This document shows positions 1,357 to 9,043 of a stretch of DNA of 9,043 bases, one piece after another. How positions within the stretch are numbered: position 1 is the stretch's first letter; every line of letters begins with the position of its first letter. This DNA is from Epulopiscium sp. Nele67-Bin004 (lineage in GTDB: Bacteria > Bacillota_A > Clostridia > Lachnospirales > Cellulosilyticaceae): contig LNZQ01000015.1 in the NCBI GenBank assembly GCA_002007315.1, positions 1 to 9,043 of the forward strand, written 5' to 3'. A program made the position numbers and the translations under genes. A model generated the notes under the pieces. It saw only the letters and a list, made by a program, of their open reading frames with translations, was not told the DNA's origin and did no database searches.

Positions 1357-1364
1357 TTTCCTCA
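1357..1364 (-). promoter_or_regulatory. Ribosome binding site overlapping the upstream stop codon
   Basis: On the minus strand the string TGAGGAAA contains both the TGA stop of the polysaccharide deacetylase gene (1364-1362) and the GAGG Shine-Dalgarno core of the next gene, 7 nt before its ATG at 1352. This supports the chosen start and suggests translational coupling of the two genes. Confidence 0.75.
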
Positions 1365-3134
1365 ATTCTTCGTTAACTTCTCAATTTCATTTAATAAATC
1401 TTCTGGTGTCGTATTATTTGACACGTGAATTCTCTTTACATCTGTACTTGTCGTTGTACTTTTCCCGCTATTTAAATTCGTGATTTGCATATCAACGCCT
1501 GCTTCTTGTAGCCAAGATATTGTATTTTTATTGTGTTCAAATTGTGGATACGAAAAAACAATTACATCTCGTGCCCCCAAATTTTTCTCAATTAACTCCA
1601 AACAATATGTTGCTTGATATATTGCACTTGCCTTACTTTGCTGATCCATTGACGGGTGGTCATGACTATGAAGTTGTATGTCAATTAAACCACTTTGCTC
1701 CATCTCCAAAGATTGCTCCCAGTCAAAATGTGGCAGTCCAGTTTCCAGCTCTCCCACATATTTAGACACTATAAAAAATGTTGCTTGTGCCCCATATTTT
1801 TTTAGTATTGGATACGCTGTTTCATAGTTGCTTAAATATCCGTCATCAGCCGTTATAATAAAAGGCTTTTCTGGCATTCCACCTGTTCCATTTAGATATT
1901 CCCACAAATTCAGAAAATTGATAGGTGTATATCCGTTATCTAGTAAATGTACAAGTTGTTCTTCAAATAACTTGGTTTCTACAGCTATACTTTGCTCAGC
2001 TTTTGTTTGTCCAACCACATCAGCAAATTCATGATACATTAATACTGGTATATAGTCTTTTTCATAAATATGTTGACTATCTATAGGATAGTACACGTGA
2101 TATCTTTGTGCTTTTTCCCCCACTTCATAGTTACCTTCTTTACTAAAGTATAGATTTTGCACTTGTGCAGTCGGTTCATTAATCCATTTGATTGACACAC
2201 GTAATTCATTGTTATGATCTAGTATATCATCAACATCAATCGTTAAGTTGTATGGGTAGCCATAGACCACGCCTATTGACTCATCATTTAAATGATAATA
2301 CACATATTCAATGTCCATCATTTTTGCTTGTTCTTGAACAACTATATCTAGTTTATCTGACACAACATATGTCATTTCATCATTTGATAAAATATAAGTT
2401 TCACCATTTTGTACACCAACTAAATTTGTTGCAATCCAATTTCGACTTAAAAGAGCTTCATAAGCAAATGCAATTTGATAAGTACTATTAGGTATATCGA
2501 CATATTGATTGATCCAATAGACATTTTGCATATTTGTAGCCATATTGTAATATAACGACATAATAATATCTAAACTTTCTTGCACCTCATCTTCGTCAAA
2601 TACCTCCTGAGTATTATCTGGCAGATTTTTTGCAAGATTGTCATCAATGAAAATTTTTGTATCTGTTCCTAACACTTTATCTTGAAATTCTATTAGTTTA
2701 TCTATATCTGCAGTAGTATTAATCTCAAATTTAGGGTGTTGTTCGCTAGTATCAAGATTGTATACTATATTAGTATTTTTCTCAGATATATAGATTGTAA
2801 CATCATGTAAATATTGTCTTATTTGTTCTATAATGTCATGACTTTCAACCTCAATGTAGATTTCCTCTACAAATTCTGATACGCCCACAAAAACTTCTTC
2901 TAAATTTGTATCTTCTGAAATTTTTATATTATAAAAATTGTTCTCATCTGTTGGATATAAAGTAGTGTCAACGTTCACTGCATACTTAATAGGTGTATTC
3001 CCTTTATTTTGAGATATATAAATATCACTTTTGTAGACAATTTGAGGATAAATCCACTGAATAATAGATATAGCAATAGCTGATATAATAAAAAAGACTG
3101 CCAAACTTCCTAGAATTGATTTAATGTTTTTCAT
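1362..3134 (-). CDS. Membrane-anchored polysaccharide deacetylase (NodB domain, PgaB/IcaB-like)
   Basis: This is a 590-residue protein. Residues 7-28 form one hydrophobic N-terminal segment (signal anchor), so the rest should lie outside the membrane. Residues about 30-355 are a beta-rich region I do not recognise. The catalytic half starts with PVLMYHEF (363-370), the entry motif of PgaB/IcaB-type deacetylases. NodB motif 1 is TADDGY (428-433), with D430 as expected catalytic base and D431 as metal ligand. Motif 2 is HSHDH (489-493), supplying metal ligands H489 and H493. A SYP motif at 528-530 and RIH at 568-570 fit the later motifs. The family hydrolyses N-acetyl groups from GlcNAc-type polymers (peptidoglycan, wall polymers, exopolysaccharide); the substrate here is unknown. 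The usual Phe of TFDDG is Ala (A429), but the catalytic residues are intact. The start is supported by GAGGT (3141-3145) 6 nt upstream and by a strong promoter. It is the first gene of a two-gene unit with the stalk-domain protein gene. Confidence 0.92.
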   Translation of the reverse strand: MKNIKSILGSLAVFFIISAIAISIIQWIYPQIVYKSDIYISQNKGNTPIKYAVNVDTTLYPTDENNFYNIKISEDTNLEEVFVGVSEFVEEIYIEVESHDIIEQIRQYLHDVTIYISEKNTNIVYNLDTSEQHPKFEINTTADIDKLIEFQDKVLGTDTKIFIDDNLAKNLPDNTQEVFDEDEVQESLDIIMSLYYNMATNMQNVYWINQYVDIPNSTYQIAFAYEALLSRNWIATNLVGVQNGETYILSNDEMTYVVSDKLDIVVQEQAKMMDIEYVYYHLNDESIGVVYGYPYNLTIDVDDILDHNNELRVSIKWINEPTAQVQNLYFSKEGNYEVGEKAQRYHVYYPIDSQHIYEKDYIPVLMYHEFADVVGQTKAEQSIAVETKLFEEQLVHLLDNGYTPINFLNLWEYLNGTGGMPEKPFIITADDGYLSNYETAYPILKKYGAQATFFIVSKYVGELETGLPHFDWEQSLEMEQSGLIDIQLHSHDHPSMDQQSKASAIYQATYCLELIEKNLGARDVIVFSYPQFEHNKNTISWLQEAGVDMQITNLNSGKSTTTSTDVKRIHVSNNTTPEDLLNEIEKLTKN

Positions 3135-3165
3135 AAATGTACCTCGCTATATGTTGTATTCTAAA

Positions 3166-3194
3166 ATTATACAGGATTTTTCTCTGTGGTACAA
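3166..3194 (-). promoter_or_regulatory. Sigma-A-type promoter for the deacetylase operon
   Basis: Reading the minus strand, TTGTAC (3194-3189) and TATAAT (3171-3166) are separated by exactly 17 nt. The -10 is a perfect consensus and the -35 matches TTGACA at 4 of 6 positions. The -10 lies 31 bp upstream of the ATG at 3134. The promoter lies just beyond the terminator of the upstream ATPase gene, so the deacetylase/stalk-protein pair is an independent transcription unit. Confidence 0.8.
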
Positions 3195-3198
3195 GTAT

Positions 3199-3237
3199 AA
3201 AAAAAGTGTCGCAAGATAAATAATTGCGACACTTTTT
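3199..3237 (-). terminator. Intrinsic terminator of the MsmX/UgpC-like ATPase gene
   Basis: The segments 3201-3214 and 3224-3237 are perfect 14-bp inverted copies (core AGTGTCGCAA / TTGCGACACT) with a 9-nt loop. On the minus strand the stem starts 4 nt after the TAA stop of the ATPase gene and ends in a run of seven T. This is a textbook Rho-independent terminator. The A-run on the other arm would let it act in both directions, but no gene reads into it from the plus strand. Confidence 0.93.
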
Positions 3238-3241
3238 ATTA

Positions 3242-4354
3242 TTAGTTTGTTATAGTAAGTTGTGTATCTACATCAAATAAATGCATTTTTTCCATTTCAA
3301 GTCCAAGTCTTACTGTGCTTCCTGCTTTAGCTTTACAGCTTGGGTCAACACGACCTGTCATGTTTGTACCTTCACAAACCATGTATAGGTATGTTTCAGA
3401 ACCTAACATCTCTGTAACCTCAACTTTTGCTGTAACAGTTACATATTTAACTTTTTCAGATTCAACAACTGTATCCATATCTGCAGTATGCTCTGGACGA
3501 ATACCCATCATAACGCTTTTTCCAACGTAAGGTGCAACTTTTGCTGCTTTGCTTGCTGGAACTGGAACTTTTGAGCTACCAAATGATAATACTGGACCTG
3601 AACCTTCTTTTGAAACTTTACATTCGATAAAGTTCATTTGTGGAGAACCGATAAATCCTGCAACAAATAGGTTTTTAGGTGAAGTATATAATGTACCTGG
3701 TGAGTCAACTTGTTGAATAATTCCGTCTTTAAGAACTACGATACGTGTTCCAAGTGTCATCGCCTCAACTTGGTCATGCGTAACATAAATAAATGTAGTT
3801 TCTAGTTTGTTGTGTAGTTTTGAGATCTCAGTTCTCATTTGCACACGTAGTTTTGCATCAAGGTTTGATAATGGCTCATCCATTAAGAATACTTTTGGCT
3901 CACGAACGATTGCACGACCCATGGCAACACGTTGTCTTTGTCCCCCTGATAATGCTTTTGGTTTACGGTCTAGACATTTATCGATATCAAGAATTTTAGC
4001 TGCTTCACGAACTCTTTTGTCAATCTCGTCTTTTGGAGTTTTACGTAGTTTTAACCCGAATGCCATGTTGTCATAAACTGACATATGAGGATAAAGTGCG
4101 TAGTTTTGGAAAACCATCGCAATATCACGGTCTTTTGGAGCAACTTCATTACATAATTTGTCCCCAATCCAAAGTTCTCCGTCAGAAATTTCTTCAAGAC
4201 CAGCTATCATACGCAATGTAGTTGATTTTCCACATCCTGATGGTCCAACGAAAATTATAAATTCTTTATCTGCAATATCTAAATTGAAATCTTTTACTGC
4301 TGTATATCCATTCGAATATCTTTTATACACATTTTTTAGTTTTAATCCTGCCAC
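3242..4354 (-). CDS. Sugar ABC-importer ATPase, MsmX/UgpC/MalK type
   Basis: A 370-residue cytoplasmic ATPase of normal family length. It has every motif: Walker A GPSGCGKST (37-45), Q-loop Q83 in FQNYALYPH, signature LSGGQ (135-139), Walker B VFLMDE (155-160), D-loop SNLD (163-166) and H-loop H193. Residues about 235-370 form the MalK-type C-terminal OB/TOBE regulatory region with GIRPEH (284-289). The family powers carbohydrate importers (oligosaccharides, glycerol-3-phosphate). No permease or solute-binding gene is adjacent, as is typical of MsmX-like ATPases that serve several importers. The start is GTG at 4354-4352, not ATG: it gives the canonical MA-x-L-x-L-x-NV-x-K-x-Y beginning and is preceded by AAGGGAGG. 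The gene has its own terminator and is preceded by a 363-bp gap, so it is probably monocistronic. Arginine is mostly CGT and the gene looks less AT-rich than its neighbours, which suits a highly expressed housekeeping gene. Which sugar or importer it serves cannot be told from sequence. Confidence 0.96.
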   Translation of the reverse strand: MAGLKLKNVYKRYSNGYTAVKDFNLDIADKEFIIFVGPSGCGKSTTLRMIAGLEEISDGELWIGDKLCNEVAPKDRDIAMVFQNYALYPHMSVYDNMAFGLKLRKTPKDEIDKRVREAAKILDIDKCLDRKPKALSGGQRQRVAMGRAIVREPKVFLMDEPLSNLDAKLRVQMRTEISKLHNKLETTFIYVTHDQVEAMTLGTRIVVLKDGIIQQVDSPGTLYTSPKNLFVAGFIGSPQMNFIECKVSKEGSGPVLSFGSSKVPVPASKAAKVAPYVGKSVMMGIRPEHTADMDTVVESEKVKYVTVTAKVEVTEMLGSETYLYMVCEGTNMTGRVDPSCKAKAGSTVRLGLEMEKMHLFDVDTQLTITN

Positions 4355-4362
4355 TGTGTGAT

Positions 4363-4370
4363 CCTCCCTT
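4363..4370 (-). promoter_or_regulatory. Strong ribosome binding site fixing a GTG start
   Basis: The minus-strand sequence AAGGGAGG ends 8 nt before the GTG at 4354-4352. No in-frame ATG lies between it and the conserved N-terminal residues, so the site decides the GTG start of the ATPase gene. Confidence 0.85.
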
Positions 4371-4409
4371 AATACTACTTCTTTTTATTTAATTGCTTAA
4401 CTGATTTTT

Positions 4410-4427
4410 ATTATACTACATTTGTAG
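4410..4427 (-). promoter_or_regulatory. Candidate -10 box with adjoining palindrome upstream of the ATPase gene
   Basis: A perfect TATAAT (4415-4410, minus strand) lies 55 bp before the GTG start. Directly upstream, in the -10/-35 spacer, is CTACAAATGTAG (4427-4416), an inverted repeat with 5-bp arms. No recognisable -35 hexamer is found at 16-18 nt spacing and there is no extended TGn element. If this is the promoter, it is weak alone or uses an activator, and the palindrome could be an operator. This is inference. Confidence 0.4.
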
Positions 4428-4523
4428 GCTTGGGGCTATTCGCTATTTCTCTAAAAAAATCAATTTTCTTTTAGCTATAATCTATAATTCCAATAGAAAA
4501 TATTTCCTAACCCTACTTTTAGT

Positions 4524-4550
4524 ACCCAAATTATTTGTAATAATTTAGGT
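4524..4550. repeat. 12-bp inverted repeat with 3-nt loop
   Basis: The plus-strand arms ACCCAAATTATT (4524-4535) and AATAATTTAGGT (4539-4550) pair over all 12 positions, with one G-T wobble when read as minus-strand RNA, around a 3-nt loop. A second small inverted repeat, GGTTTTTAACC (4548-4558), overlaps one arm, so two alternative foldings exist. On the minus strand no T-run follows the stem, so it is not a standard terminator for the upstream operon. It could be an mRNA 3' stabilising stem or a protein-binding site. Confidence 0.6.
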
Positions 4551-4717
4551 TTTTAACCAATATGCATTCAAAATTGACGTGTTTTCATGACTAAAATTAT
4601 ATTATTTTACCCTGTACATATACCCTATCAACTTCAAAATTGTCTATATATAGTCCTTTTTACCTAATATCTACATTAAAATTACTTCATATTTTTGGTA
4701 CTTTATACAACGGCTTG

Positions 4718-6517
4718 TCAATTGTGCGATTTTATACGTTTTTCTATTACTTCAATTAAGAATTTAGGCAACACTAACATCCTTTTTGCACGTGTTGGCT
4801 CACTAATTAGCCTATAAAACCATTCTAATCCCAGTTTTTGAAATGCAATCGGAGCACGTTTCACTTCACCAGACATAACATCTAAGCTACCACCCACCCC
4901 AACAGCAACTTTTATGTTATGCAATTTATCTTTATTGTCAATAATCCACTGCTCTTGTTTTGGCGCACCTAGCCCCACAAGCAAGATATTTGCACCTGAT
5001 TTATTTATTTCCTCAATAATTTCATCTGTTTCGCTATCATCAAAATACCCATCTCTATATCCAACAACTTCAATATTAGGATATTTTTCAGTCATTTTTT
5101 CACTTGCAAGTTTAGCTATCTCTGGTTTACCTCCAAAGAAAAAGTATTTGTATTCTTTGTCGCTGCTTATTTTCATTGTATTTTGAACCAAGTCAAATCC
5201 AGCAACTCTTTCCTTTAAAGATGTTCCTTTTAAAATTTTTGATGCTATAACAACACCTATTCCGTCTGGAACAACTAAATCTGCATTTGCCAATATATCT
5301 CTAAGAGATTTATCTTGTTTTGCACGCATAATAATCTCTGGATTTGGGGTACACACTAAATGCAACTTATCTTTTGCCATAAATGTCTTAAAACGCCCTA
5401 TTGCTTGGTTCATTGTAACGTTGTCAACATCAACCCCCATAACATCAATTTTTTGCTTGAGCAATTGCCGAATAAACCTTATTGGGGCTTGAAGTTCCTC
5501 TTGCTTATGGTTCAACGTCTTTTGGATAATTTCTTTTTGAAGTCCAATGTTATTGTCCATATAATCAATATATTCTATCAGCGTTTCATCACTAAGCTGA
5601 GTTGTATGAATGCAATGTCTAATGTTCATTTCTTGCATTATATTTTCAACTTTTGGGTCATATGATATAGCAATCATCGGCACATTTAGAGCATATGCCA
5701 TAATTAAACTGTGCAGACGCATACCAATAACAAAGTCAAACTGTGCTGTATATGCAAGCACTTGTGAAATATTTAACGGCTTGTCCACAACATGTAGATG
5801 TTGATTATCAACAAGACTCGCCACATCTTTTGCTATTTTAATATCATGTTCATATTGCATTCCAACCATATAAACTTCATATCCTATAGAAATTAAATAT
5901 TTGCACCCCTCTGCCACACAACTAACTATTTCAGCAGTATTTTCCCACTCTCTTAGATAAATACCAACTTTTTTGTGACCAAATAAGTTTGCTTTTTTAG
6001 TTGATTTTATCCCAAAAACAGGATCCATAACAACATGAATATTTCTTTTTAACCCAGAGTCTATAAGCAGTTGCTTTGACCCATTATCTCTAACAAAAAT
6101 ACCATCAACTTTTTTGAGAACTTTTTTGATTAGAAAACGATTAAATTTATTATTCACAGGACCTACGCCCTGTGAATAAAATACTACTTTCTTTCTATAT
6201 AATTGGGCAATTTTTATTACGCCCAAATAATACGCAATGTTTTTGTTGCTCGTAACATCTTGCAACAAACTTCCGCCACCACTTATCAACAAATCACAAC
6301 GACGTATACATTTAGAAACACTTTTTAAATTCCATCTATTTACCGAATTAACTCTATAAGTTTTAGCTGTTTTCTCTGGATTGTTCGATAACACGGTTAT
6401 TTGTACATTAGGAATATTTTGCTTTAGCGACTTAACTATAACATACAGTATAGCTTCGTCACCAATGTTGTCAAATCCATAATAGCCCGATATTACTATG
6501 TTAGTTTTATGTTCCAT
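4718..6517 (-). CDS. Fused CsaB polysaccharide pyruvyl transferase and TagA/WecG/CpsF ManNAc transferase
   Basis: One uninterrupted 599-codon frame holds two complete enzymes. Residues 1 to about 355 are a CsaB-type polysaccharide pyruvyl transferase: GYYGFDNIGDEA (11-22), ISGGGSLLQD (78-87), SQGVGP (115-120), RDNGS (143-147), and MRLHSLI (266-272) with the family's conserved R267/H269. Residues about 358-599 are a TagA/WecG/CpsF glycosyltransferase: GVDVDNVTM (361-369), TPNPEII (390-396), VVPDGIGVV (415-423, whose D418 matches the proposed catalytic Asp), FFFGGKP (459-465), VGLGAPKQEQW (514-524), GVGGSLDVMSG (540-550) and the basic tail KRAP...EWFYRLISEPTRAKR. Each half has normal length and almost no linker joins them. 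In the known pathway TagA adds ManNAc to undecaprenyl-PP-GlcNAc and CsaB (PEP-dependent) ketalises that ManNAc, so the fusion joins consecutive cytoplasmic steps of secondary cell wall polymer synthesis. The ATG overlaps the end of the DUF5693-type gene by 22 bp and has AAGGTGAT (6524-6531) upstream. The enzymes are normally separate proteins encoded by csaB and tagA. Confidence 0.95.
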   Translation of the reverse strand: MEHKTNIVISGYYGFDNIGDEAILYVIVKSLKQNIPNVQITVLSNNPEKTAKTYRVNSVNRWNLKSVSKCIRRCDLLISGGGSLLQDVTSNKNIAYYLGVIKIAQLYRKKVVFYSQGVGPVNNKFNRFLIKKVLKKVDGIFVRDNGSKQLLIDSGLKRNIHVVMDPVFGIKSTKKANLFGHKKVGIYLREWENTAEIVSCVAEGCKYLISIGYEVYMVGMQYEHDIKIAKDVASLVDNQHLHVVDKPLNISQVLAYTAQFDFVIGMRLHSLIMAYALNVPMIAISYDPKVENIMQEMNIRHCIHTTQLSDETLIEYIDYMDNNIGLQKEIIQKTLNHKQEELQAPIRFIRQLLKQKIDVMGVDVDNVTMNQAIGRFKTFMAKDKLHLVCTPNPEIIMRAKQDKSLRDILANADLVVPDGIGVVIASKILKGTSLKERVAGFDLVQNTMKISSDKEYKYFFFGGKPEIAKLASEKMTEKYPNIEVVGYRDGYFDDSETDEIIEEINKSGANILLVGLGAPKQEQWIIDNKDKLHNIKVAVGVGGSLDVMSGEVKRAPIAFQKLGLEWFYRLISEPTRAKRMLVLPKFLIEVIEKRIKSHN

Positions 6518-8409
6518 CTACTTATCACCTTACTTATAATTTTCGTAACAACTTCGTACACGATAATAAACCCAATTCCTATAATAACCCCCATAGCAAT
6601 ACCATATCCAGTTCTTATTCCAGATACGATAAGCGGTGTGTGTATATGAGCAAATGTGTTAATCATAGAAAGCTGTCCAATTGTTCCTACAACAAGCACT
6701 GGCCATCTAAATCCTTTGTATGACATATATAATCCTAGTATCATAAACGGATGACCAATCATAAATTCTTTAGTTCGTGGTCTTATACCTAAAGTATCGT
6801 CTAGTGTTGCTCTTAACAACGCTTCAAGTTCTGGAATTTGCGTTGTATTTCCTGTTCTGCTTACATAAATAGTAACAACTGTGTATACAACAAATACACC
6901 TAGAATTCCAAATCCAACTAAATATTTCCAATTTATCTTTAGAAGCTTTTTAACTTCCTCAACTATTTCTTTCCAACGTGTAACTATTATCATGCCCGCA
7001 ACAATTATAAGAGGTAATACATGCGATGCTTTTACGCCTTTATACAAGTTTACACCGATTGCAAAACTATATTCGCTAATAAGTGCCGCCATTATTGCAA
7101 TACCCATAAATGTTACAAGTGTTATTTTGCAATAATGCATAAGTGCCAAAGTCAAGCTTTTTTTCTTCGGGGGATCTATACATAACAATACTCCATAACT
7201 TGAAAACACTACTGTTGTAACAAATGCCATACTTTGCATAGCGTCAATTTTTGAGCTTAGTAGCAATGCAACGTAATACAGCGTGCCCCCAATACCCGCA
7301 AGATAGCCAATAATCGCAAATTGTGTCATAGCTATTATTTTCATAAACATAGCTACTGCTCCAAGTCCAATTACTAATAATTGTTTTCTTGATGCAACTG
7401 GCCAACCTTTCATTTCAATGTCTGTGTCAAGCGTATATCCAAAACCTAGTGCCGACTCCACAAATCCACTTATTTCATCTTGCAGTGTTTCAAAATCTTT
7501 TTCAACGCCACCTGTATTTGGAAGTACAAACCCAAATGCTCTAACATTTCGCTCAACAAGTGCAAGTTCCAATGTGTCCAAAATACCACTTGCTTTTATG
7601 TGCGACAACTTGTCAGGAGAAAACATTCTTATTACGTTGTATACGCCATCTTGCTCAATACGTCTTGAAAGAGTTATATACCCTTCTTGAGTATCCGAGA
7701 AAAATTCCATATATGCAAAACCATATTCACGTGCAAATTTAATCATATTTGCTTCTGTGTACGCTGGAATTCTCGTTCCATCAAAAAGCAAATGCCCCAA
7801 GTTTGGTATTTGTTCAAGTTGGTCAATAAGCGTTTGTATCCCATATTCTGAATAGCTTGTAAATCCTCTAATTTCTGGTGAAATTTCAAATCCTCTATTC
7901 GCAAGATACGTCAAAGCTTCTATATCAAACCCCGTCCCTAATTGCGTTAGATTTTTGTATGGACGTTGTGAAAAAATATTTAGGTAATCACCATCTCTAG
8001 TTACAGTAACTCCTTTAGTAACCAAATTGTCATAAATTCTATCAAGCGTTACTTCATCAATTGCTTCTATAACAAGTCGATATTCTTCTTCTTTCACAAT
8101 GTCTATATACCCTCTAGCCAAATCACTTGTTACAAAATCTTTGGCGTTTGATACACTATAATATTCTGGCAAAAGAACATTTTCCTCAACCGTTATATTA
8201 TTTACACCAAGCTCCAAAAATATATCGAGCACTTCATCAAGCTCATAATCTGTATATTCAATAATATGCAGTATGTCTTGATACCTTACGGCTACTTGAA
8301 TATTTGTAAAATTATGCTCTGCTGTCATTCTCTGCGACAATATGTTTATAGAAAATACAACAGAAACTAAAATAACAATATTTAGTAGCCAATTAATTGT
8401 CTTTTGCAT
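6496..8409 (-). CDS. Polytopic membrane protein with large extracytoplasmic domain (DUF5693-type)
   Basis: A 637-residue protein of no established function, recognised as the DUF5693-type family that in Firmicutes tends to sit beside csaB. One N-terminal membrane segment (about 7-25) is followed by a soluble region of about 310 residues (30-340), then eight or nine hydrophobic stretches to the end (about 343-360, 363-385, 394-411, 427-447, 463-477, 496-516, 551-563, 568-588, 600-621). The soluble part alternates short beta strands (FEISPEI 174-180, HLLFDGT 206-212, FAYMEF 231-236, YNVIRMF 257-263, RAFGFVL 290-296) with amphipathic helices, like a TIM barrel. A conserved-looking RPRTKEFMIGHP (543-554) lies in a loop before the last membrane segments. 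GGAGG (8415-8419) lies 5 nt before the ATG. The gene follows the small secreted protein gene by 13 nt, and its 3' end overlaps the CsaB-TagA gene by 22 bp, so the products probably act together. A role in handling the pyruvylated polymer at the membrane is a guess from context. Confidence 0.85.
   Translation of the reverse strand: MQKTINWLLNIVILVSVVFSINILSQRMTAEHNFTNIQVAVRYQDILHIIEYTDYELDEVLDIFLELGVNNITVEENVLLPEYYSVSNAKDFVTSDLARGYIDIVKEEEYRLVIEAIDEVTLDRIYDNLVTKGVTVTRDGDYLNIFSQRPYKNLTQLGTGFDIEALTYLANRGFEISPEIRGFTSYSEYGIQTLIDQLEQIPNLGHLLFDGTRIPAYTEANMIKFAREYGFAYMEFFSDTQEGYITLSRRIEQDGVYNVIRMFSPDKLSHIKASGILDTLELALVERNVRAFGFVLPNTGGVEKDFETLQDEISGFVESALGFGYTLDTDIEMKGWPVASRKQLLVIGLGAVAMFMKIIAMTQFAIIGYLAGIGGTLYYVALLLSSKIDAMQSMAFVTTVVFSSYGVLLCIDPPKKKSLTLALMHYCKITLVTFMGIAIMAALISEYSFAIGVNLYKGVKASHVLPLIIVAGMIIVTRWKEIVEEVKKLLKINWKYLVGFGILGVFVVYTVVTIYVSRTGNTTQIPELEALLRATLDDTLGIRPRTKEFMIGHPFMILGLYMSYKGFRWPVLVVGTIGQLSMINTFAHIHTPLIVSGIRTGYGIAMGVIIGIGFIIVYEVVTKIISKVISRWNIKLT
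6524..6531 (-). promoter_or_regulatory. Ribosome binding site inside the preceding gene
   Basis: The minus-strand AAGGTGAT lies within the last codons of the DUF5693-type gene, 6 nt before the ATG at 6517 of the CsaB-TagA gene. Together with the 22-bp gene overlap this indicates coupled translation and fixes the fusion protein's start at a residue that leads straight into the CsaB glycine-rich motif. Confidence 0.75.
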
Positions 8410-8422
8410 AAATGCCTCCTAC

Positions 8423-8923
8423 TTACTGTATTGTATAATCTCCCCTCACCATAAGAACCAACTCCGTATTTGCCAACAAACCTCTCCCATCTGCTTTTGG
8501 CACAATAAGCAAGTGATTTTTTGGTGTAAGTTCCCCTGCTGACAAATCTTGACCATCTGTTACATCTTGTATCCCCCCACTACTTGATGCAATAGTTGTC
8601 GCTGTTCCCGACCTAAGTATTATCTCAGCACTTTCACCACCAATAATAGTTTTTCCAAGTGGCACAGTAACAACTTCATAGCTAAAGCTACCCGCAGATT
8701 GTCCACTAGCATTTTGTGATGAACCACCACCAACGAGATTTTCAAGTCGCTTTATCTCTTGTTCAATCGTTTCAATTTCTGCTTCAAGTATAGCTATTTC
8801 CCTATCCACATAACTTTTTGTTACAATCGGGTCTTGCTCACTACCAGGGTCTAAACTAAATCCATACGTGCTACCGATAAACGTCATCAAAACTACACCG
8901 CTAATATAAAATTTCTTTTTCAT
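8423..8923 (-). CDS. Small secreted coiled-coil protein of unknown function
   Basis: A 166-residue protein. Residues 1-22 are a signal peptide or signal anchor (MKKK, then a hydrophobic run ending STYGFS). A short motif, PGSEQDPIVTKSYVD (26-40), leads into a heptad-patterned helix (39-64, EIAILEAEIETIEQEIKRLENLV) typical of a coiled coil, then a Gly/Ser/Asn/Gln-rich hinge (65-79). The C-terminal 85 residues are beta-rich and look like a folded domain: VPLGKTIIGG (87-96), EIILRSGTAT (100-109), GGIQDVTDGQDL (116-127), TPKNHLLIVPKADGRG (133-148) and LVLMVRGDYTI (155-165). I recall such tails in hypothetical proteins of other Firmicutes but cannot assign a function. AAGGGAAG (8931-8938) lies 7 nt before the ATG. 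It follows the upstream gene by 21 bp and precedes the DUF5693-type gene by 13 nt, so it is a member of the wall-polymer operon and probably forms oligomers outside the membrane. Confidence 0.9.
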   Translation of the reverse strand: MKKKFYISGVVLMTFIGSTYGFSLDPGSEQDPIVTKSYVDREIAILEAEIETIEQEIKRLENLVGGGSSQNASGQSAGSFSYEVVTVPLGKTIIGGESAEIILRSGTATTIASSSGGIQDVTDGQDLSAGELTPKNHLLIVPKADGRGLLANTELVLMVRGDYTIQ

Positions 8924-8944
8924 TAATATTCTTCCCTTTCTGTC

Positions 8945-9043
8945 CTATCTAATACCCTTAAAAGTATAGTATATTTCGTCCCCTACCAATCTAAATTGAA
9001 CGAAAGTTGTACCCAAAACATCGTCTTGGTTATTTACAATACC
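8945..9043 (-). CDS. C-terminal end of an upstream gene (partial)
   Basis: An open frame enters from the window edge (first codon 9043-9041) and runs 32 codons to a TAG at 8947-8945, ending VGDEIYYTFKGIR. The composition looks like genuine protein with a beta-rich end. The stop lies 21 bp before the start of the secreted coiled-coil protein gene, a spacing expected within an operon. Too little is visible to identify the product. Confidence 0.6.
   Translation of the reverse strand, partial: GIVNNQDDVLGTTFVQFRLVGDEIYYTFKGIR

Follow-up and report, generated by a model that had tools for sequence, protein, structure and literature searches.

A single open reading frame on the minus strand of the window (the whole stretch of DNA analysed here, 9,043 nucleotides from Epulopiscium sp. 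Nele67-Bin004) appears to hold two enzymes of wall-polymer synthesis, CsaB and TagA, end to end. Is this a genuine gene, are both halves likely to be active, and how did they come to be joined? According to the accessible text of PMC6030368, TagA of Paenibacillus alvei attaches ManNAc to GlcNAc-PP-lipid, and CsaB then pyruvylates this sugar while it is still lipid-linked; the order of reactions assumed in a first-pass annotation of this DNA, TagA and then CsaB, agrees with that account. The same source describes csaB, tagA and tagO as co-transcribed. The P. alvei pair (CsaB, PAV_RS07425; TagA, PAV_RS07420) thus offers a close parallel, with the two consecutive reactions carried out from linked genes of one transcriptional unit, but by two separate proteins, whereas the window encodes one polypeptide. 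From the sequence and its comparisons, the gene very probably specifies a bifunctional enzyme that would make pyruvyl-ManNAc-GlcNAc-PP-lipid and that would have arisen by in-frame loss of the boundary between co-operonic csaB and tagA.

The frame begins with ATG and encodes 599 amino acids with no internal stop. The CsaB half scores 299.4 bits against TIGR03609 (CsaB; cut-off 213.1) over residues 7–304, equivalent to positions 2–296 of the 301 in the profile, and matches PF04230 over its entire length (1–280 of 280). In the TagA half, PF03808 is matched at residues 412–580 (profile 1–167 of 168; 218.8 against a cut-off of 27.4), TIGR00696 (WecG/TagA/CpsF, GT26) is exceeded with 183 bits against 69, and the TarA model covers residues 354–596 (profile 6–246 of 247). 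Neither half is truncated, since solo proteins have matching lengths (355–378 residues for the 67 CsaB relatives listed, 240–267 for the 120 TagA relatives listed). The first-pass annotation's central observation, two complete enzymes in one frame, therefore stands, and the minus strand, which it left unstated, can be added. Its remark that the halves meet almost without a linker is also borne out: in the predicted structure (mean pLDDT 92.1, pTM 0.76, built on 44 aligned fused rows out of 54, the ten left aside being long or reversed) a helix spans residues 344–352 and the first TagA strand starts at 356, so that the linker is effectively zero.

Table 1. Positions of the fused gene, its parts and the elements around its start
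Feature	Position	Strand	Evidence or remark
csaB–tagA fusion gene	4718..6517	−	599 codons plus stop; open reading frame, profile matches and a 92% identical fused relative (P0001)
CsaB half, GT-B-like pyruvyltransferase (predicted)	5456..6517	−	residues 1–354; R143, R189, R267, H269 and K289 kept
TagA half, GT-E fold ManNAc transferase (predicted)	4721..5455	−	residues 355–599
Conserved residues of the TagA half	T390, N392, D418, R569, R576, R579		C-terminal appendage retained
DUF5693 membrane protein gene, upstream	6496..8409	−	22-base overlap with the fusion gene; recurrent neighbour of csaB/tagA
Shine-Dalgarno-like AAGGTGA	6525..6531	−	ahead of the fusion start codon; −6.9 kcal/mol
Internal ATG, codon 360	5438..5440	−	Shine-Dalgarno pairing 0 kcal/mol

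Close relatives with separate genes raise the suspicion that an assembly or sequencing artefact joined two genes here. The fused relative P0001 argues against it: this protein has the same length, is encoded on a different contig (the longest is 6608 bases, against 9043 for the window) and is joined at the identical point, and of its differences from the window protein 24 fall in CsaB and 23 in TagA. Assembly error is rejected on the strength of this second contig, and with P0002 and P0003 fused as well, an artefact of either kind is exceedingly improbable.

Fusion extends well beyond these few proteins. Among the best 120 of 7234 relatives (matches from 7999 scored candidates, ranked from a fused query and thus giving no frequency), 53 carry both domains and 67 carry CsaB alone. 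The expectation that the two enzymes are normally separate accordingly holds for the characterised P. alvei pair but not as a general rule. The named sources of fused records include Actinomycetota, Candidatus Aquicultor, Firmicutes, Candidatus Margulisiibacteriota and Candidatus Saganbacteria, and some fused proteins already stand in public databases under CsaB names. Other proteins with PF04230 and PF03808 share the domain pair, and 52 of the 53 listed share its order; with the window included, CsaB precedes TagA in 53 of 54. Beyond P0001–P0003 they differ in having only 31–43% identity to the window protein and, in most, longer linkers. All ten fused proteins scanned, of the 53, lie above the CsaB and WecG/TagA superfamily cut-offs, and none of the ten reaches the TarA equivalog cut-off. 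The exception in order, P0037 (638 residues), is arranged TagA–CsaB, which makes the TagA C-terminal appendage internal; P0006 (1000 residues) is a three-part fusion with an N-terminal GT4 glycosyltransferase ahead of CsaB and TagA. In a plasmid collection (289 records with a tblastn match) no fused gene was found: in each of the three records with a query coverage of 80% or more, the two genes are separate. A scan of genome contigs gave one Sumerlaeota TagA locus alone, with no CsaB match in that genome, and a scan of viral contigs gave no match. The literature matches listed, which come mostly from outside subscription journals, contain no description of a natural CsaB–TagA fusion. That the fusion is a real, recurrent and modest variation on a known pathway is well supported.

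Retention of functional residues bears on whether both halves are active. The accessible part of PMC10435577 names Y14, F16, S88, T94, R148, R207, R306, H308 and K328 as residues of P. alvei CsaB for PEP or acceptor. Their equivalents here, Y13, F15, S83, T89, R143, R189, R267, H269 and K289, are all intact, the mapping resting on motif and equal spacing (for R189 on motif without equal spacing) rather than on an alignment of P. alvei CsaB itself. For TagA the reference is the Thermoanaerobacter italicus enzyme (5wb4, 5wfg, 7mpk, 7n41), a GT-E fold protein with about 48% identity to the TagA half, although it stands alone, without an N-terminal CsaB domain. Its residues T37, N39, D65, R214, R221 and R224 all have equivalents in the window protein. 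Three of these, catalytic D65 and T37 and the appendage residue R221 in the portion of PMC6493773 available, correspond to D418, T390 and R576, which are found in all 54 fused and all 120 solo TagA rows. The hallmark motifs of both enzymes claimed in the first-pass annotation are thus present, down to every published functional residue that could be mapped. Structure comparison places the CsaB half in the general GT-B fold; the pyruvyltransferase Pvg1p (5ax7) is absent from the best 50 matches in either structure list.

It is conceivable that one half is a non-catalytic scaffold, or that the TagA half uses a different sugar. The WecG/TagA/CpsF superfamily spans several sugars, and the TagA half scores 215 bits on the TarA equivalog NF041710, below the cut-off of 350. 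This shortfall does not tell against TagA activity, however, because the solved T. italicus TagA (residues 2–236) also falls short, with 208. Together with the retained residues and the identity to that solved enzyme, this makes a scaffold or a change of sugar a distinctly improbable reading.

A separate TagA made from an internal start within the fused gene was considered and rejected. The first-pass annotation had noted the lack of a Shine-Dalgarno sequence at codon 360, and indeed the pairing energy there is nil, compared with −6.9 kcal/mol at codon 1. The best internal starts between codons 320 and 400, ATG 380 (−3.9 kcal/mol, within the domain) and TTG 352 (−3.8), are weaker than the −6.4 kcal/mol that 5% of random places reach; there is no sign of separately initiated TagA. 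Since the fusion start codon sits within the end of the DUF5693 gene, translational coupling to that gene is suggested. A scan of positions 3000–9043 for promoters and terminators gave scores near background, and an Rfam scan found nothing at gathering scores.

That one polypeptide performs both reactions is favoured for three reasons: the P. alvei pathway fits, the ends joined here are ends that were tagged in that system, and the TagA appendage stays free. As the available text of PMC6030368 describes them, the P. alvei study proteins were an N-terminally MBP-fused TagA and a C-terminally His-tagged CsaB; the N terminus of TagA and the C terminus of CsaB are precisely the ends joined in the window protein. 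TagA is activated at the membrane through its C-terminal appendage, by the accessible account in PMC6493773, and the order CsaB–TagA leaves this appendage free. In the mechanism envisaged, the TagA half would transfer ManNAc from UDP-ManNAc onto GlcNAc-PP-undecaprenol at the inner face of the membrane, the CsaB half would then add a 4,6-pyruvate ketal from PEP to that ManNAc, and the polymer product would anchor SLH-domain surface proteins. Any kinetic benefit would consist at most in 1:1 dosage and membrane co-location. The fusion would couple both steps that build the wall epitope to which SLH-domain proteins bind, and a single protein with both activities, if such it is, would be a handy reagent, tractable for structures of sugar pyruvylation.

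How might two such genes become one? In all three of the named Bacillota loci read, csaB and tagA are adjacent but separate, and a DUF5693 gene lies close by. The Acetoanaerobium noterae locus (L002) runs DUF5693, csaB, 15 nt, tagA, and its csaB and tagA share one reading frame. It shares the gene order of the window, and there too DUF5693 overlaps the start of csaB; it differs in the stop and 15 nt that part csaB from tagA and in a DUF5693–csaB overlap of 8 bases instead of 22. Paenibacillus cellulosilyticus has DUF5693, csaB, 10 nt, tagA and a tagO-like gene, and Pontibacillus has csaB, an 8-nt overlap, tagA, an MraY family gene and DUF5693. A closer relative appears similar: because P0004 (CsaB), P0129 (TagA) and P0242 (DUF5693) each sit on one contig of 5301 bases, they are probably neighbours, and its csaB and tagA appear to be separate genes. 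In the window's ancestry, the boundary between neighbouring operon genes, csaB and then tagA, would have been lost in frame.

In trees of either half the window protein and P0001 are surrounded by solo rows, a few of which bear the names Cellulosilyticaceae or Epulopiscium/Epulonipiscium. They adjoin P0004/P0129 and fused P0002, and fused P0003 falls elsewhere among the solo rows. In topology tests, whose p values are optimistic because the groups were chosen once the initial trees had been seen, a single ancient fusion behind all fused proteins was rejected (CsaB half, AU p 0.001, with 10 of 54 fused and all 67 solo rows), as was one fusion for the window, P0001, P0002 and P0003 (CsaB half, p 2e-96). 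Holding these four together gave p 0.012 in the TagA half (68 of 120 solo rows) and p 3e-5 in a concatenated set (6 fused rows and 18 presumed pairs). Holding only the window, P0001 and P0002 together was not rejected (p 0.56 for CsaB, 0.68 for TagA, 0.39 concatenated), and in the two single-half tests this constraint scored slightly higher than the free tree; in the concatenated tree the separate P0004/P0129 fall between window plus P0001 and P0002 (90/80). Since joint grouping with P0003 is rejected, the sequence trees point to at least two fusions in the window's clade, that of P0003 being independent, in addition to deeper ones, whose solo relatives lie outside the sampled rows. The P0003 junction contains an internal MQDKIDILG that looks like a former TagA start, where the window has no linker. 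Pairwise distances correlate from half to half, with rho 0.57 over 53 fused rows (P0112 excluded) and 0.75 over the 18 presumed pairs, which is expected for co-inheritance and gives fusion no advantage over an operon.

Two variants of the bifunctional reading, whose probabilities overlap with its own, concern what fusion achieves. In the first, both halves are active but joining them confers no kinetic advantage, and the lipid-linked intermediate moves through the membrane by free diffusion. The loss of a boundary is easy between genes that lie 15 nt apart in one frame, 10 nt apart, or with an 8-nt overlap; close relatives (P0004/P0129) appear to keep separate genes, and linkers vary widely among fusions. 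Set against this neutral outcome are the origin of the fusion more than once, the one listed relative in reverse order and the retention of fusions across deep divergence, and the chances of neutrality seem about even. In the second variant, the TagA site hands ManNAc-GlcNAc-PP-lipid straight on to the CsaB site. Such channelling would suit steps that are consecutive in the pathway (PMC6030368, in its accessible part), a short junction in a model that is confident around it, and the repetition of the fusion. It is nonetheless rather doubtful: a pTM of 0.76 leaves the arrangement of the domains unfixed, proximity alone may suffice for enzymes that both use a membrane-held substrate, and P. alvei manages with separate enzymes. 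Nor does it follow from fusion, as the first-pass annotation had proposed, that nearly every ManNAc could be pyruvylated. The disaccharide repeat of P. alvei is pyruvylated although its enzymes are separate, by the available text of PMC6030368, and a gain in pyruvylation is thus no distinguishing prediction.

Because fusion recurs, regardless of order, it might be supposed that TagA and CsaB work generally as a membrane-bound unit in which pyruvylation is coupled to ManNAc transfer while the lipid-linked disaccharide is being made, with DUF5693 as the membrane partner that polymerises or exports the product. This broader proposal is unlikely; if true, fused lineages should pyruvylate every repeat, and in Bacillus anthracis, as the accessible text of PMC6030368 reports, pyruvate is placed at the chain end only. 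The repeated origin of the fusion is a separate, circumstantial line of evidence for CsaB using the product of TagA, an action demonstrated biochemically in P. alvei.

The DUF5693 product, multi-helical and probably a membrane protein, is a recurrent neighbour and as such may point to a membrane component that is still missing; it is a candidate for polymer export or polymerisation. Its gene lies at 3930–5999 in L002, 1821–4004 in L003 and 6781–8595 in L004; of the four loci examined, window included, three have it immediately next to csaB, and in L004 it follows tagO. The literature search found no paper naming the family. The predicted model is weak (pLDDT 63.2, from an alignment of seven rows), and this model has no match in the PDB at E 0.001.

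Three further genes of the window lie on the minus strand. Upstream of DUF5693, positions 8423–8923 encode a secreted-looking protein of 166 residues with a coiled-coil-like stretch (by eye) and no Pfam or NCBIfam match at E 0.001. Among six window proteins scanned, SLH domains gave no match at E 0.001. The gene at 3–1352, which the window end cuts, encodes a protein of surface type whose domains are copper amine oxidase N-terminal and PKD-like, and an SLH domain of this protein could lie beyond that end. Positions 1362–3134 encode a polysaccharide deacetylase that has a hydrophobic stretch at its N terminus and resembles PgaB in its C-terminal part only.
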